Shown here: one piece after another, positions 250-14,809 of the stretch
Layout: the number at the start of each line of letters is the position of its first letter
How positions within the stretch are numbered: the first letter of the stretch is position 1
DNA from: Alistipes sp.
GTDB taxonomy: Bacteria; Bacteroidota; Bacteroidia; Bacteroidales; Rikenellaceae
Direction: 5' to 3'
Length of the DNA: 36,958 bases
NCBI GenBank assembly: GCA_017546725.1
Contig: JAFYRX010000039.1
Location: forward strand, 1-36,958
Notes under the pieces: model-generated
The model's database searches: none
The model's input: only the letters and a program-made list of their open reading frames with translations
Told to the model about the DNA's origin: nothing
Translations under genes and position numbers: made by a program

Positions 250-1062
250 TTAGAAGCATATCGCGCACGATGCTCCTGCGGCCTTGAACTCCGAGTAGTA
301 TACAGGCGCAACTGCTACAGCCGAAGAACTCTTCAGGTTGAACAATTTGCGGCTCAAGGGCAACATCCAATAACCTATGCGTGCCGAGAGTATACCCACC
401 GCAGCCCCTCCTATGGTGTCGGTAATCCAGTGGCGGTCGTTATACAGACGCATAAATCCCACGCCCGTAGCGATGACGTATGCTGGTATGCCGTATGCCC
501 AGCCATACTCCGTGCGGACCAACTCTGCTCCCGCAAAGGCTGTAGTTGTATGTCCCGATGGGAAGGAGTTATGTTCTGCGAAGTTGGGGCGTTGCTCACG
601 AATCGTATATTTCAGTCCATTCACAAGGGCCGTCTCTGCGATGAATGTCACAGCCGCCACACACACCTTCTCAGGGAACGTATGTTTCGACTTGGTGGGC
701 AGGGCCGACAAACCAAGATACATAGCCGTCGGTAGATACTGCAGGTAGTCGTCAAAGTGCATCGGGCAGTTGCCACGTATCTGCAGGGCCTTCTCTCTGA
801 CCTTGAGGTCCAACTTGTTCAGCGGAGCGTTTTCGCCAATGCCGAGTGCACCTACAGTAAACAGTGCGGCAGGAGCGATTAGTTGTTTTGGTCGAAATGT
901 CGTTGTGTAGTCACTCTTTTCGTGCCACCAGCCCTTCTTGGCGGCGGTATTGCTTACGGCCAAAGAGTCCTTGCCGTAAGAGTCTGCAAGGCCCTCTGCC
1001 TGTGCCACTACCGACACAAAGAGCATAGAGCAGGTTAGGATTATTGTCAATATTTGCCTCAT
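250..1062 (-). CDS. Secreted PAP2-family phosphatase
   Basis: The product is a 270-residue type 2 phosphatidic acid phosphatase, likely acting on a lipid phosphate or pyrophosphate at the periplasmic face of the inner membrane. All three PAP2 motifs are present: K151-x6-R158-P159, P168-S-G-H171, and R205-x5-H211-x3-D215, which holds the catalytic histidine and aspartate. The ATG at 1062 was chosen because it starts a clean signal peptide (hydrophobic core, then AQA at residues 20-22); an upstream in-frame ATG at 1104 would add 14 residues before it. The upstream methyltransferase gene ends 119 bp away, so the gene may have its own promoter (a TAnnTTTG match lies at 1136-1143). LpxE/LpxF-like lipid A dephosphorylation is possible, but the substrate cannot be read from sequence. 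Confidence 0.88.
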   Translation of the reverse strand: MRQILTIILTCSMLFVSVVAQAEGLADSYGKDSLAVSNTAAKKGWWHEKSDYTTTFRPKQLIAPAALFTVGALGIGENAPLNKLDLKVREKALQIRGNCPMHFDDYLQYLPTAMYLGLSALPTKSKHTFPEKVCVAAVTFIAETALVNGLKYTIREQRPNFAEHNSFPSGHTTTAFAGAELVRTEYGWAYGIPAYVIATGVGFMRLYNDRHWITDTIGGAAVGILSARIGYWMLPLSRKLFNLKSSSAVAVAPVYYSEFKAAGASCAICF

Positions 1063-11260: not shown

Positions 11261-11360
11261 GTGGCGGATAAGAAGAGGAGAGGAAATGTCTACGTCACTC
11301 CACCGAGCCTTTAGGCGAGGATTGGAGTCTCTACACTCAATAAAATTTAAGTAGACAATA

Positions 11361-11411
11361 AAATTCTCCCTCTAAGGCAAGAGGGAGTACCCTTTAGGGG
11401 GAGGGAGTGTG
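11361..11411 (+). repeat. Module B repeat
   Basis: The copy reads AAATTCTCCCTCTAAGG, then a complementary AGAGGGAG, then TACCCTTTAGGGGGAGGGAG and GTGTG. The first half is a hairpin. It is followed by a short AT-rich spacer and a module C copy. Confidence 0.8.
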
Positions 11412-11435
11412 TTTTAGATGAAAGATAGACAGACA

Positions 11436-11493: not shown

Positions 11494-12216
11494 TTATCTC
11501 GCCAAATACTTTATTGCGCGCATCAGCGAGTGCGCTATCAGACGCATACCCTTGTCGTTGGGGTGACCTATGATTATATCCTTGGTGATGGTGTAGGGCT
11601 TGCCCTCGATGTCGTAGAGTGTGTCGCCCACCTTGGGGTAGATGTCGTTGAGCAGTGTTATCCAGCCTAAATCGACATATTCTAACCCATATCGTTCGGC
11701 CGAGGCTGCGAGTATGCGTTCATAACGCTCGTTGCGCCAAAATGTGCCTGCAACGATGACGTGGGGCGTTTTCTCGGGGCAGAACTCTATCAATCGCCCC
11801 ATATTCTGCTCAAAGGCCTCAATATCGCGCACATTGTCGCACATACGCAGTATTATTACGTCTGCTCCGTGGCATACCTCGCCCGCTAACGAGTCGAGGT
11901 CGCACGTCGGATTTATCTCCCAACCGTAGATGTTGAGCGGCGAGACTTCGCTCTTGCGGTTGTATTGCTGTAACTCCTTCTCGAGCACGTGGCAGAAGTC
12001 GTTTTCGCGTTTAGATGCCGCCATTCCCCAGTCGCCATACCACTCTATCTCGGCCAGGTATCCGTGATGCGTGAGCGAGTTACCCAGACACACCACCTTC
12101 AGCGGCCGCTTCAGGTTGAGTTGCCCGCCCTTTGTCTTGGCGGTGAGGCTCTCCGACCCCGCCGCCATAGTTATCAATGCGACAGCCAATACCGCTATCC
12201 GTAACAGATGCCTCAT
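11494..12216 (-). CDS. Secreted SGNH/GDSL-type hydrolase
   Basis: The 240-residue product has an N-terminal signal (hydrophobic 4-19) and the SGNH block I motif LGNSLT with nucleophile S47. The C-terminal block has the catalytic histidine in GHPNDKGM (about 217-224). Such enzymes remove acetyl or other acyl groups from carbohydrates or lipids. It starts four bases after the six-hairpin-like gene, so the two are co-transcribed and probably act on one glycan. A canonical block III glycine-x-asparagine is replaced by ILRMCDN (about 123-129), in which the asparagine is retained. Confidence 0.82.
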   Translation of the reverse strand: MRHLLRIAVLAVALITMAAGSESLTAKTKGGQLNLKRPLKVVCLGNSLTHHGYLAEIEWYGDWGMAASKRENDFCHVLEKELQQYNRKSEVSPLNIYGWEINPTCDLDSLAGEVCHGADVIILRMCDNVRDIEAFEQNMGRLIEFCPEKTPHVIVAGTFWRNERYERILAASAERYGLEYVDLGWITLLNDIYPKVGDTLYDIEGKPYTITKDIIIGHPNDKGMRLIAHSLMRAIKYLAR

Positions 12217-12220
12217 ACGC

Positions 12221-13861
12221 CTACTTCAATGAAATCTCTACGCTCTGCCCGCCCTTGCGGTTGATGCGCACCACGCCACCGCTGGCCATCTTCTCCCAAC
12301 TCCAACCCTCGGCATCATCTGTGTTATCCACTCGTTTGAGGGGTTTGCCATCCACCAATATCTGCTTGGGCATCTTCGTAAGGCGTAATATCTCCTTTGC
12401 GCTGGGCATAAAGGTCTTGTAGATAATCTGTGTGGGCGAGTATGTGATGTTCTGCACTATGCTGCTCGATTTCAGCAGGTGATTTTCGTCGGCGGGGGCC
12501 CACTCGGGCATAGCCGCTATGCCGTCAAAGAAGTGCTTGATGTAGTCGCCGTAACCATCCGAGAACCACGATGGGTTGTAGGTCGGGCCTGTAGCCACAT
12601 AGCCTGTCTCCGAGGTGCAGTATGTAGCCCAATTAAAATTCTCGAAAGCCTCCTGCTTGTACCAATCCTCTTTGCACAGGTTGTACCACATAGCGCATAC
12701 CGAAGCGTAGCGAGCCGTGTGGCTACCCATCGGGAGCATACAAATCGACTGCTCGCACTGTGCATTATAACCTAAAGTGCTATGCGTGCCGAATGCCATA
12801 TTGCAGTAGTGAATCAGCGCGGTAACGTTCTCCTTGAGGTAGGGGTCTTGGTCGGCGTTCTCCATCAAGTAACGGGCTGTCTCCATCGGAGCAATCTGCA
12901 CACGGTTTTTGTTGTCGTGGTCGTAGGGTACATCCTCGAAGTAACCCTTCCACACGAAGGTCTTCATCGGGCCCTCAATCGAGAACAACCACTCCCAAGC
13001 CTTGTCACGCGCACTCTTGTAGGCCGCCAAACGCTCCTCGCCCAAGTTGAGTCGGGGGTTGATGTTCGCCAACATATCGAACAATCTGATGGGCGAAATC
13101 ACCGAACTACAATACTCCTCCATCGCAAGGTTTGTCCTTGCGTGTACGCGATAGGGCCACGGCGATTGCTTGTAGTTTCCATCGCGCACATTTGCCGCCA
13201 GAGCATCGGCGCAGTTGAGCGCTGCCTCGAGATACTTCTCCTCCTCGGTAATCTGATAAAATTGGAGATATGCCACACCCATCTCGCCCACCTTGTCGGG
13301 CTCCAGGCATAGGGGCGCATCGCCATTTCCATTTCCGTGATAGTTCGTACCCTGAATTATGGGTGAGCCAGGGTCACTGCTTGCATAGGGGCACGATGCC
13401 CAATGAAAGTCGGCGGGCGTAGTGGCGTTCGAAAGCATAAAATCCAGATTTTCGCGCACCATCTGCAGGTAAGCCGCCTCACCTCCATACATATAGTATT
13501 TTACGGCCAAACTCTCGGTCAATCCTGCTGCAATACAGGCGGGATTTGTGCGGTGTGTCTCGCCTCGGAATGTATCTTCGGTGCTGTTTTGGAAGCCGTC
13601 AAACGAAGCGTATAGATAGTAATATTTCAGCCCCGTAGCCTCATCCTCGGGTAGCACATCCTTCAGGAACTTTGCGGCCAAGCCTGCAACGTGAGAGTAT
13701 GCAGCCCCAGGTACATCGGGTTTGTACCACGACAGCAGTGTTTTGTCGGGCGAATATATGGCCTTGTGCGTAATGATTCTCTCCTCCTCGCCATCACCCG
13801 CAGCCCACACACTGCCGATGACCGCTGCCGACAGCAGCAACGCACTAAACAACTTTTTCAT
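12221..13861 (-). CDS. Secreted protein with six-hairpin glycosidase-like fold (family unknown)
   Basis: This 546-residue protein has a signal peptide ending VWA (19-21). The middle consists of alpha-helical repeats with recurring aromatic/acidic patterns such as GLTESLAVKYYMYGG, GEMGVAYLQFYQIT and MEEYCSSVISPIRLF, which suggests an (alpha/alpha)6 barrel like those of six-hairpin glycosidases, lyases and epimerases. The last about 90 residues look like a beta-sandwich. I do not recognise a specific CAZy family and cannot assign catalytic residues. The four-base gap to the SGNH hydrolase gene supports a shared role in glycan processing. It is preceded by a structured leader with its own promoter and terminator, so expression is probably controlled by attenuation. 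Confidence 0.7.
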   Translation of the reverse strand: MKKLFSALLLSAAVIGSVWAAGDGEEERIITHKAIYSPDKTLLSWYKPDVPGAAYSHVAGLAAKFLKDVLPEDEATGLKYYYLYASFDGFQNSTEDTFRGETHRTNPACIAAGLTESLAVKYYMYGGEAAYLQMVRENLDFMLSNATTPADFHWASCPYASSDPGSPIIQGTNYHGNGNGDAPLCLEPDKVGEMGVAYLQFYQITEEEKYLEAALNCADALAANVRDGNYKQSPWPYRVHARTNLAMEEYCSSVISPIRLFDMLANINPRLNLGEERLAAYKSARDKAWEWLFSIEGPMKTFVWKGYFEDVPYDHDNKNRVQIAPMETARYLMENADQDPYLKENVTALIHYCNMAFGTHSTLGYNAQCEQSICMLPMGSHTARYASVCAMWYNLCKEDWYKQEAFENFNWATYCTSETGYVATGPTYNPSWFSDGYGDYIKHFFDGIAAMPEWAPADENHLLKSSSIVQNITYSPTQIIYKTFMPSAKEILRLTKMPKQILVDGKPLKRVDNTDDAEGWSWEKMASGGVVRINRKGGQSVEISLK

Positions 13862-13911
13862 AGGTTTTCGTTTTTATTATTTATTTTTCACTTTTTATGC
13901 TTTCCTGCAAC

Positions 13912-13950
13912 AAAAAAAGGGAACAGCCACCCTTGCAGGCGGTTATCCCT
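13912..13950 (-). terminator. Intrinsic terminator inside the leader
   Basis: On the minus strand AAGGGATAACCGCC folds with GGTGGCTGTTCCC (one bulge, one mismatch, two G-U pairs), followed by seven T. It lies about 50 bases before the start codon at 13861, the usual place for an attenuator. Confidence 0.65.
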
Positions 13951-13963
13951 TCTTATAATCTAC

Positions 13964-14059
13964 CTACGCCAGACGCTCTGCGAATGACGTAACTGCCCCC
14001 CCCCACAACAAGTTGCGAGTTGCACGGCTAATCATCTGGTTGGTAGGTAATTGCTTCAT
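13964..14059 (-). CDS. Possible 31-residue leader peptide
   Basis: An ATG at 14059 opens a frame of 31 codons ending in TAG. The peptide starts MKQLPTNQM and ends SFAERLA; its centre is NLLWGG, where the nine-G tract encodes part of WGG. The inferred transcription start falls almost on the ATG, so translation would be leaderless or would begin at the internal Met9. Codons are plausible for this genome. Whether the conserved unit is this peptide or the RNA fold cannot be told from one sequence. Confidence 0.3.
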   Translation of the reverse strand: MKQLPTNQMISRATRNLLWGGAVTSFAERLA

Positions 14060-14064
14060 ATTGA

Positions 14065-14096
14065 CAAATTTAATCTTTATTTGCCAATTATGCAAT
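14065..14096 (-). promoter_or_regulatory. Promoter of the structured leader
   Basis: The minus strand has -7 box TAAATTTG (14065-14072), a perfect TAnnTTTG match, and ATTG (14093-14096) as a one-mismatch -33 box with 20 bases between them. The predicted start is about 14057-14060. Confidence 0.6.
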
Positions 14097-14114
14097 AGTA
14101 TCTGCAATATCAAA

Positions 14115-14168
14115 CACACTCCCTCCCCCTGACGGGTGCTCCCTCTAACTTTAGAGGGAGAATTTTTT
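14115..14168 (-). repeat. Module B repeat
   Basis: The minus strand reads AATTCTCCCTCTAAAG, its complement, then CACCCGTCAGGGGGAGGGAG and TGTG. It lies downstream of the RdgB gene, separated by an AATTTTG microrepeat at 14195-14226 that overlaps the RdgB stop codon. Confidence 0.78.
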
Positions 14169-14224: not shown

Positions 14225-14809
14225 TTACAAGGCCTTACTATTTTGCAGGAACTCGGCCAATTTCCTTACGGCACGGCCTCTGTGCGATATGGCGTTCTTC
14301 TCCTCTGCTGAAATCTCGGCAAACGATAGGCTGTGCCCCTCAGCCACAAACAATGGGTCGTAACCGAAACCGCCCTCGCCCTTCTCCTCGGTGGTGATGT
14401 GGCCTCGCACGATGCCCTCAAAGAGATACTCCTTGCCGCCGATGATGAGTGCTATTGCTGTGCGGAACTGTGCGCCACGAGCCTCCACACCTTGCATACG
14501 CTCCAACAGCAGGCGCTTGTTGGCCTTATCGTCGTGGCCGTCGGTGGCGTAACGTGCCGAGCGCACACCAGGCTCGCCACCCAAAGCATCTACCTCCAAC
14601 CCTGTGTCGTCGGCAAAGCAATCCAACCCCGTGCGGGCATATATGTAACGTGCCTTCTGCAAGGCGTTGCCCTCCAGCGTGGGCTGTTCCTCGGGTATAT
14701 CCTCCACTATTCCGCACTCACGTAGTGATACGAGTGTGAACTCATCGCCCACGACCTGACTCACCTCACGCAGTTTGTGAGCATTATTTGTTGCAAATAC
14801 AAGTTTCAT
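14225..14809 (-). CDS. rdgB: dITP/XTP pyrophosphatase, RdgB/HAM1 family
   Basis: The 194-residue protein hydrolyses deaminated purine nucleoside triphosphates (dITP, XTP) to monophosphates, cleaning the nucleotide pool. It starts with the family motif [14 protein letters not shown], has the acidic metal site in [10 protein letters not shown] (about 64-73), the glycine-rich [11 protein letters not shown] stretch, and the C-terminal base-recognition motif ISHRGRA. Length matches the family. It begins four bases after the symporter gene and closes the apparent four-gene operon. Its stop codon lies within an AT-rich microrepeat. Confidence 0.96.

Follow-up and report, generated by a model that had tools for sequence, protein, structure and literature searches.

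A candidate family of G-tract leader elements in Alistipes and its putatively attenuator-like member ahead of a 546-aa protein gene

Introduction

What occupies the 363 nt that separate a Ham1/RdgB family gene (14225..14809, minus strand) from the gene for a 546-aa protein (12221..13861, same strand) in a genome of Alistipes, and does it control the latter? The stretch of DNA analyzed here, hereafter the window, comprises 36,958 nt and represents contig 49 of a source genome of 2.14 Mb that is 85% complete. An original prediction, made from the letters of the window, placed a structured leader RNA in this gap, with its own promoter and terminator in the layout of a riboswitch or attenuator, and set that reading against a 31-codon small gene. 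In leader-peptide attenuators of the trp and his type, a promoter is followed by a short ORF, an intrinsic terminator, and the regulated gene. We examined the parts of this locus, its homologues in related genomes, and the explanations that could account for them.

Results

The leader element lies between the two genes on the minus strand, and several of its predicted parts were present. The promoter consisted of a TTG (14095-14093), a 20-nt spacer, and the -7 box TAAATTTG (14072-14065), spanning 14065..14095 on the minus strand, and it was one of three TTG-N18..21-TAnnTTTG sites on that strand of the window, with none on the plus strand. The ORF, MKQLPTNQMISRATRNLLWGGAVTSFAERLA, occupied 14059-13964 of the minus strand (13964..14059) with 31 codons and a stop codon at 13966-13964. 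Its ATG was located 5 nt after the -7 box, so the leader mRNA is probably leaderless. The ORF crossed a G-tract leader box, CGCAACTTGTTGT-G9-CAGTTACG (13988..14017, minus strand), with two successive GGG codons, GGG being the rarest glycine codon (3.3% of the 799 glycine codons counted across 24 ORFs of the window). This box had no place in the original prediction. Its G-run, at 14004-13996, was the sole run of at least seven G or C in the whole window. An intrinsic terminator followed (13912..13954, minus strand), in which a hairpin at 13954-13914 overlapped the seven-U run at 13918-13912 as proposed; the hairpin had a z of -2.97, and 6 of 1,000 shuffles were equally stable.

The 546-aa gene downstream of the leader has a signal-peptide-like start (by eye) and is followed by a 240-aa gene, the second of the unit (11494..12216, minus strand), which had a weak match to GDSL lipases (24.5 bits versus a Pfam cut-off of 32.9). 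The 546-aa protein itself had no Pfam or NCBIfam match, and its best PDB match was at E 0.39, leaving its description as secreted and carbohydrate-active-like unproven. Additionally, a dispersed repeat, CTCCCTCTAA..TTAGAGGGAG with CACCCGTCAGGGGGAGGGAG, was noted at 14111-14167 and 11360-11427, with many copies in the source genome, G001, and G014. The two-gene unit is bracketed by two oppositely oriented copies, one of which terminates on the plus strand in a T run resembling a terminator.

Whole-leader DNA similarity recovered only the leader's own copy at convincing length from 61 relatives, 393 genomes of the order, and 180 of the genus; weak genus-level matches in G500, G529, and G558 were, in hindsight, the box. 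A whole-leader search of phages and plasmids gave no match, the leader peptide found nothing beyond itself below E 0.25 in 61 genomes, and back-translated peptide and box patterns gave no hits in viral contigs. A G9 pattern matched seven stretches of the viral contigs, all of which were G runs lacking the box flanks and were rejected.

A covariance model built from the window leader alone (two identical rows) was then run on the 180 congeneric genomes and returned five matches outside the source genome with E no higher than 0.1. Two of these, L112 (genome G001) and L116 (G500), were full-length homologues with the part order TAnnTTTG, ATATG, ORF, TGA-G9-CA, stop, terminator, about 40 nt, and gene, while L113, L114, and L115 matched mainly at the terminator and were set aside. 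A promoter-ATG-G9 pattern gave 13 matches in 12 genomes of the genus, four of these matches being family members, and contributed a fourth locus, L124. Matches to the stretch AAATTTGTCAATATGAAG in L066 and L071 fell within coding-looking sequence, and most others of the 15 inspected looked like ordinary promoter regions.

The element common to the homologues was CGYAACTYGCTGA-G(8-10)-N-ATTTAGC/CG. Scanning with the pattern YGYAACTYGCTGAGGGGGGG, allowing up to two mismatches, produced 42 matches in 29 of the 180 congeneric genomes against seven for the reversed-pattern control, and in 324 genomes of the order it produced four matches outside the leader's own genome (contexts uninspected) against three for the control. 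As far as tested, the box family thus appears confined to Alistipes. Curation left 35 distinct loci, the window included, in 25 of 180 genomes (counted by hand), with at most three distinct loci per genome; each species was represented by a single genome, and many of the genomes were incomplete. Loci were dropped as repeats of an identical 80-nt context (L178, as L158, and L181, as L180), for failing a run of at least five G (L143 and L176), or in part for having no TAnn[T/C]TTG within 160 nt (L148, L152, and L171). With its AATTACG right arm, the dropped L152 may nevertheless belong to the family. Six near-duplicates (L165, L173, L174, L177, L179, and L183) were left out of second counts. Additionally, four boxes of a single genome (L158, L177, L178, and L179), located near contig ends, have the sequence just behind the box in common, a likeness that points to recently duplicated loci, to loci that have recombined with each other, or to an effect of assembly.

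Because members were sought by the left half of the box and its G-run, the conservation of these parts is partly selected; the right arm lay outside the search pattern and was also conserved, with its core T present in 34 of 35 loci. G-run lengths, which may carry assembly errors as homopolymers, were 5 (one locus), 7 (three), 8 (seven), 9 (19), and 10 (five). A Bacteroidota-type promoter was located within 100 nt at 35 of 38 box-regex loci (34 TAnnTTTG and one TAnnCTTG), although the promoter was partly a membership criterion in that the three promoter-less loci among the 38 were dropped. In 275 control windows taken 200-1000 nt upstream, most of them coding, TAnnTTTG did not occur; it is of the type given as the consensus for B. 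fragilis sigma-ABfr in PMC7366714.

The distance from promoter to box fell into few classes across the 35 loci: 46-49 nt (14 loci), 57-60 nt (17), 68 nt (one), and 91-94 nt (three, among them L179, assigned 92 nt because it resembles L160 and L184, with another TAnnTTTG at 75). Using the nearest promoter, 31 of 33 distances within 40-75 nt fell in two 4-nt windows, against a maximum of 18 in 300 uniform simulations; the clustering remained without near-duplicates (26/28; simulation maximum 16) and with L179 left out (26/27; maximum 18 in 500 simulations). The spacers themselves were unrelated in sequence, with a mean identity of 33% and 35% within the two main distance classes. These loci establish a recurrent arrangement of predicted promoter, box at 46-49 or 57-60 nt (rarely at other distances), and then gene.

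Such spacing could reflect a duplex DNA operator in the early transcribed region, bound by a protein on one helix face relative to the promoter, with tract length altering the geometry. Spacings of about 47 and 58 nt, and one of 68, differ in steps of 10 to 11 across unrelated spacers, and the step of about 11 nt hints at helical phasing. However, two main clusters and the 91-94 group are no proof of it: only two clusters are well filled, making the periodicity suggestive, and a 10.5-bp period poorly accommodates the members at 91-94, one of which has another promoter-like site at 75. The linkage between ORF and terminator and the pairing of the G-run with pyrimidines, described below, point to RNA instead, and we regard an operator as clearly unlikely. 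The nadA repeat reportedly precedes its promoter and consists of something other than a G tract, whereas the box here is predicted to be transcribed. The comparison is with the phase-variable nadA promoter of Neisseria meningitidis and its repressor NadR (PMC2791445), where repeat length alters the spacing of regulatory sites before an adhesin gene.

Alternatively, a C/U-rich small RNA acting in trans might target the box, with tract length tuning expression gradually. In Helicobacter pylori, the RepG sRNA reads the G-repeat leader of tlpB, according to PMC8295292, a precedent that resembles our loci in having a variable-length homopolymeric G tract in the 5′ leader of envelope-related genes. 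Likewise, G8-10 tracts with conserved flanks were found in the leaders, transcribed as inferred from the promoter, of many surface genes, and their lengths varied between loci. Our loci are unlike RepG/tlpB in having flanks conserved on both sides, a set promoter distance, and many loci, and the partner RNA is hypothetical. RNA pairing needs no fixed promoter-to-box spacing, and all 35 loci were in sense orientation behind a promoter, with none resembling an antisense-sRNA gene (shorter or wobble-rich seeds would escape). We therefore consider a small-RNA target rather unlikely.

Other arrangements of the box itself were pursued. A hairpin between its arms would retain two A-T pairs in 35 of 35 loci, but the C position paired in only 12 of 35, so that no stem is claimed; C-G to G-C changes between the arms were seen in L154 and L156. 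As for DNA inversion, none of the 35 loci had an inverted or second box nearby, judged by at least two 13-nt matches with up to two mismatches.

The loci fell into two predicted designs, with an ORF running through the box to a terminator in eight of 35 and no terminator in 27. An intrinsic terminator between box and gene was identified in the window, L075 (which is L116), L112, L154, L156, L164, L165, and L175; for L158, L177, and L179, the available downstream sequence was too short to reveal the gene, and perhaps too short for a terminator. The ATG frame CGT-AAC was open through the box in all eight terminator members and in three of the 27 others (Fisher p 7e-6, in a test devised once the first members were known), and in 7/7 versus 3/22 without near-duplicates (p 7.7e-5), while frames 1 and 2 showed no such link. 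In six of the eight terminator members the ATG lies 5-8 nt past the promoter, where an mRNA would be nearly leaderless, and in those six the ORF stops before the terminator at the observed number of G. Leaderless mRNAs are rare in B. thetaiotaomicron, where about 3.7% of 5′ UTRs are shorter than 10 nt (PMC7366714). The distance from G-run to start of the hairpin core was similar in the window (46 nt), L075 (47), and L112 (46); the terminator of L175 was weak (-6.3 kcal/mol), and that of L154 was 199 nt behind the box.

In 24 of the 35 loci there was no box ORF, and the box is therefore conserved at the nucleotide level. A coding-only explanation was rejected on this ground and because the rarest glycine codon is used twice. 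The peptides of the 11 box ORFs differed, apart from those of two near-duplicates and the stretch that the box encodes (RNSLRGG, RNLLWGG, and CKLLRGG, for example). RNA element and small gene, posed as competitors, were accordingly not exclusive: the frame was kept in 8/8 terminator members, and the box occurred without an ORF in 24/35.

One could also read the leader as a stand-alone small gene or small RNA that acts elsewhere and whose terminator precedes the 546-aa gene by chance, given that a complete unit of promoter, ORF, and terminator is present and that the leader is missing at the orthologous locus. Yet a gene on the same strand follows in 8/8 terminator members, and the 11 peptides are not alike in the manner just described, making this very improbable.

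Among terminator-less loci, predicted pairing of the G-run with a pyrimidine run downstream of the box often ranked in the top 5% relative to shuffles (15 of 27, or 10 of 22 without near-duplicates), as compared to none of the eight terminator members. Consensus folding (alifold) gave the class at 57-60 nt, class B, -9.0 for a hairpin of G-run and pyrimidines, and the class at 46-49 nt, class A, -1.6; a column-shuffle control of this fold was uninformative, as it destroys every helix.

The closing helix proposed for the window leader existed, pairing UACCUAC with GUAGGUA and CCAGAUG with CGUCUGG. Its 5′ strands are at 14049-14043 and 14039-14033 (14033..14049, minus strand) and its 3′ strands at 13975-13969 and 13967-13961 (13961..13975, minus strand), the latter overlapping the ORF stop codon. 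It was weaker than claimed and not conserved, being absent from L075 and from L112, in which there was only a 7-pair A-U helix around the G-run. Helices enclosing the G-run in L154, L156, L164, L165, and L175 differ in sequence from it and were not counted as conservation. A comparable closing helix arose in 6 of 2,000 shuffles of the 104-nt leader, and 11 helices of its kind were found on the plus strand of the window and 10 on the minus strand. Without the terminator, the leader had ordinary stability (z -0.93, 173/1,000 shuffles as stable); a longer cut that included the terminator had a z of -1.59 (12/200). The complementarity of CCUGCAA (13939-13933) and UUGCAGG (13910-13904) was likewise present, but UUGCAGG cannot be an antiterminator because it is transcribed only after the U-run. 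Pairing between leader and the 5′ arm of the terminator was no better than in shuffles in any of the eight terminator members (at best, 56 of 200 shuffles were as good).

That the leader belongs to no known class held up, since an Rfam search of the window returned no family at gathering score and only chance-like sub-threshold matches (best E 0.21). The same search recovered the cobalamin riboswitch in L087 as a positive control, and among 20 box-bearing loci it found two tmRNA matches only, both away from the box. A metabolite riboswitch of a new class would fit a long leader with a terminator before a gene, and leader plus terminator was somewhat stable (z -2.02, 38/1,000 shuffles). The lack of an Rfam match, the missing helix in the two homologues, the failure of antiterminators to surpass shuffles, and the fact that the sole conserved part seen was the 30-nt box, which occurs in leaders irrespective of a terminator, all oppose it, and we give the riboswitch hardly any credence. 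Hence, of the riboswitch or attenuator layout, the attenuator-like part was retained, with promoter, short ORF, terminator, and gene recurring at independent loci elsewhere, and the riboswitch part was not supported.

We next considered the genes behind the boxes, with labels assigned by reading the sequences rather than by family search. Some encode fimbrillin-like lipoproteins that start with MKA(R/K)F(L/F)ALAALVLG, others outer-membrane-like proteins or an ABC transporter, and by this reading the boxes most often appeared to precede surface lipoprotein, fimbrillin-like, or outer-membrane-like genes. In seven of the eight terminator leaders, all but the window, the leader was followed by a small gene with the pattern (A/R)P(E/N)(I/L)(E/D)...E.GF and then a lipoprotein-like gene. 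Small genes of 38-55 aa with this pattern were noted behind the box in L139, L138, L156, L164, L165, L154, and L175, coinciding with the leaders that bear a terminator.

Several individual loci had peculiarities. In L155 (about 773-853, minus strand), the leader ORF enters the downstream outer-membrane-like gene in frame at G8 and would end within 20 nt at G7 or G9, a possible N-terminal extension switch. In L151 (2422-2825) and L153 (230-633), from two species, the boxes serve similar outer-membrane-like proteins about 1 kb from a tmRNA gene, and the promoter-to-box spacing differs (60 versus 46).

For the 546-aa protein, the only close orthologue was at L033/L079, with 87% identity. The other 179 congeneric genomes had a sole strong match, in G502, and two weak ones, and relatives at 28-31% occurred in three of 24 other genomes of the order that were searched. 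At L033 only 12 nt separate the orthologue from rdgB, with no counterpart of the 363-nt leader block; in G014, which has the most similar RdgB (93%), a different ORF directly follows rdgB.

The ABC transporter allowed a broader comparison. A protein search of 20 chosen genomes, three of which (G528, G558, and G465) were chosen for having the box, placed a box between the promoter and the start codon of the orthologue in four, including a further, diverged copy in G443, and the other 16 had no run of at least six G in the 240 nt upstream. Among the box-less orthologues (L193-L208), 13 of 16 have TAnnTTTG about 50 nt or less from the start. Compared with these, loci L189-L192 look as if the box had been inserted behind a pre-existing promoter.

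Discussion

Our preferred explanation, which we hold with somewhat more confidence than doubt, is that the window copy is an attenuator-like member of a lineage-specific family of 5′ leader elements, with the box as a common recognition site. In the window, the terminator would end most transcripts, and production of the 546-aa protein would depend on read-through decided at the box. Sensing could fall to a ribosome delayed on the rare GGG GGG or to a trans-acting factor recognizing the box. Of these, the ribosome would be the simplest sensor, because the ORF crosses the box with the rarest glycine codon twice. The leader ORF cannot, however, be the general mechanism, with 24 of 35 members having no ORF, and because the role of the box must serve both designs, it is most likely read by a factor, which may recognize it in the RNA, in the non-template DNA strand of the elongation complex, or in duplex DNA. 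Counting against the preferred explanation are the orthologue at L033/L079, which has no leader, the absence of an antiterminator, the unconserved helix, and the rarity of leaderless mRNAs in B. thetaiotaomicron.

The window leader resembles leader-peptide attenuators in its short ORF before a terminator, its rare codons, and the linkage of ORF and terminator across loci. It is unlike them in that no antiterminator was found, that the box also occurs without ORF or terminator, and that the downstream genes are surface-type rather than for biosynthesis of the encoded amino acids; for GGG GGG in the window ORF, no matching pathway was apparent among the downstream genes as read. The ops sequence is GGCGGTAGCGTG, and by eye, against this sequence, the 35-row box consensus was not ops-like, setting it apart from RfaH/ops. 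NusG paralogues recruited in leaders, as outlined in PMC12691694 for RfaH at ops, LoaP at the dfn hairpin, and UpxY, nevertheless offer a likeness, namely a short leader element of special operons that stands before a terminator in a subset. Among the titles and abstract beginnings listed by narrow searches of the open-licence literature, none described a G-tract leader element in Alistipes or its relatives.

More speculatively, a single trans-acting factor may read the G-tract box at a few set promoter distances as a genus-wide surface code, with two output devices, the ORF-coupled terminator and the hairpin of G-run and pyrimidine run, and with slippage of the G tract tuning each surface gene independently. 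We offer this as a tentative possibility about which we are more doubtful than confident.

The search also illustrates that a leader without a BLAST homologue can still be assigned to a family when the relevant 30 nt are identified. The family predicts a trans-acting reader, polymorphism in tract length, and read-through. Surface-gene switching in gut Bacteroidales is mostly ascribed to invertible promoters, and a box at set promoter distances, in ORF-terminator and hairpin versions, would add another layer of control for surface genes.
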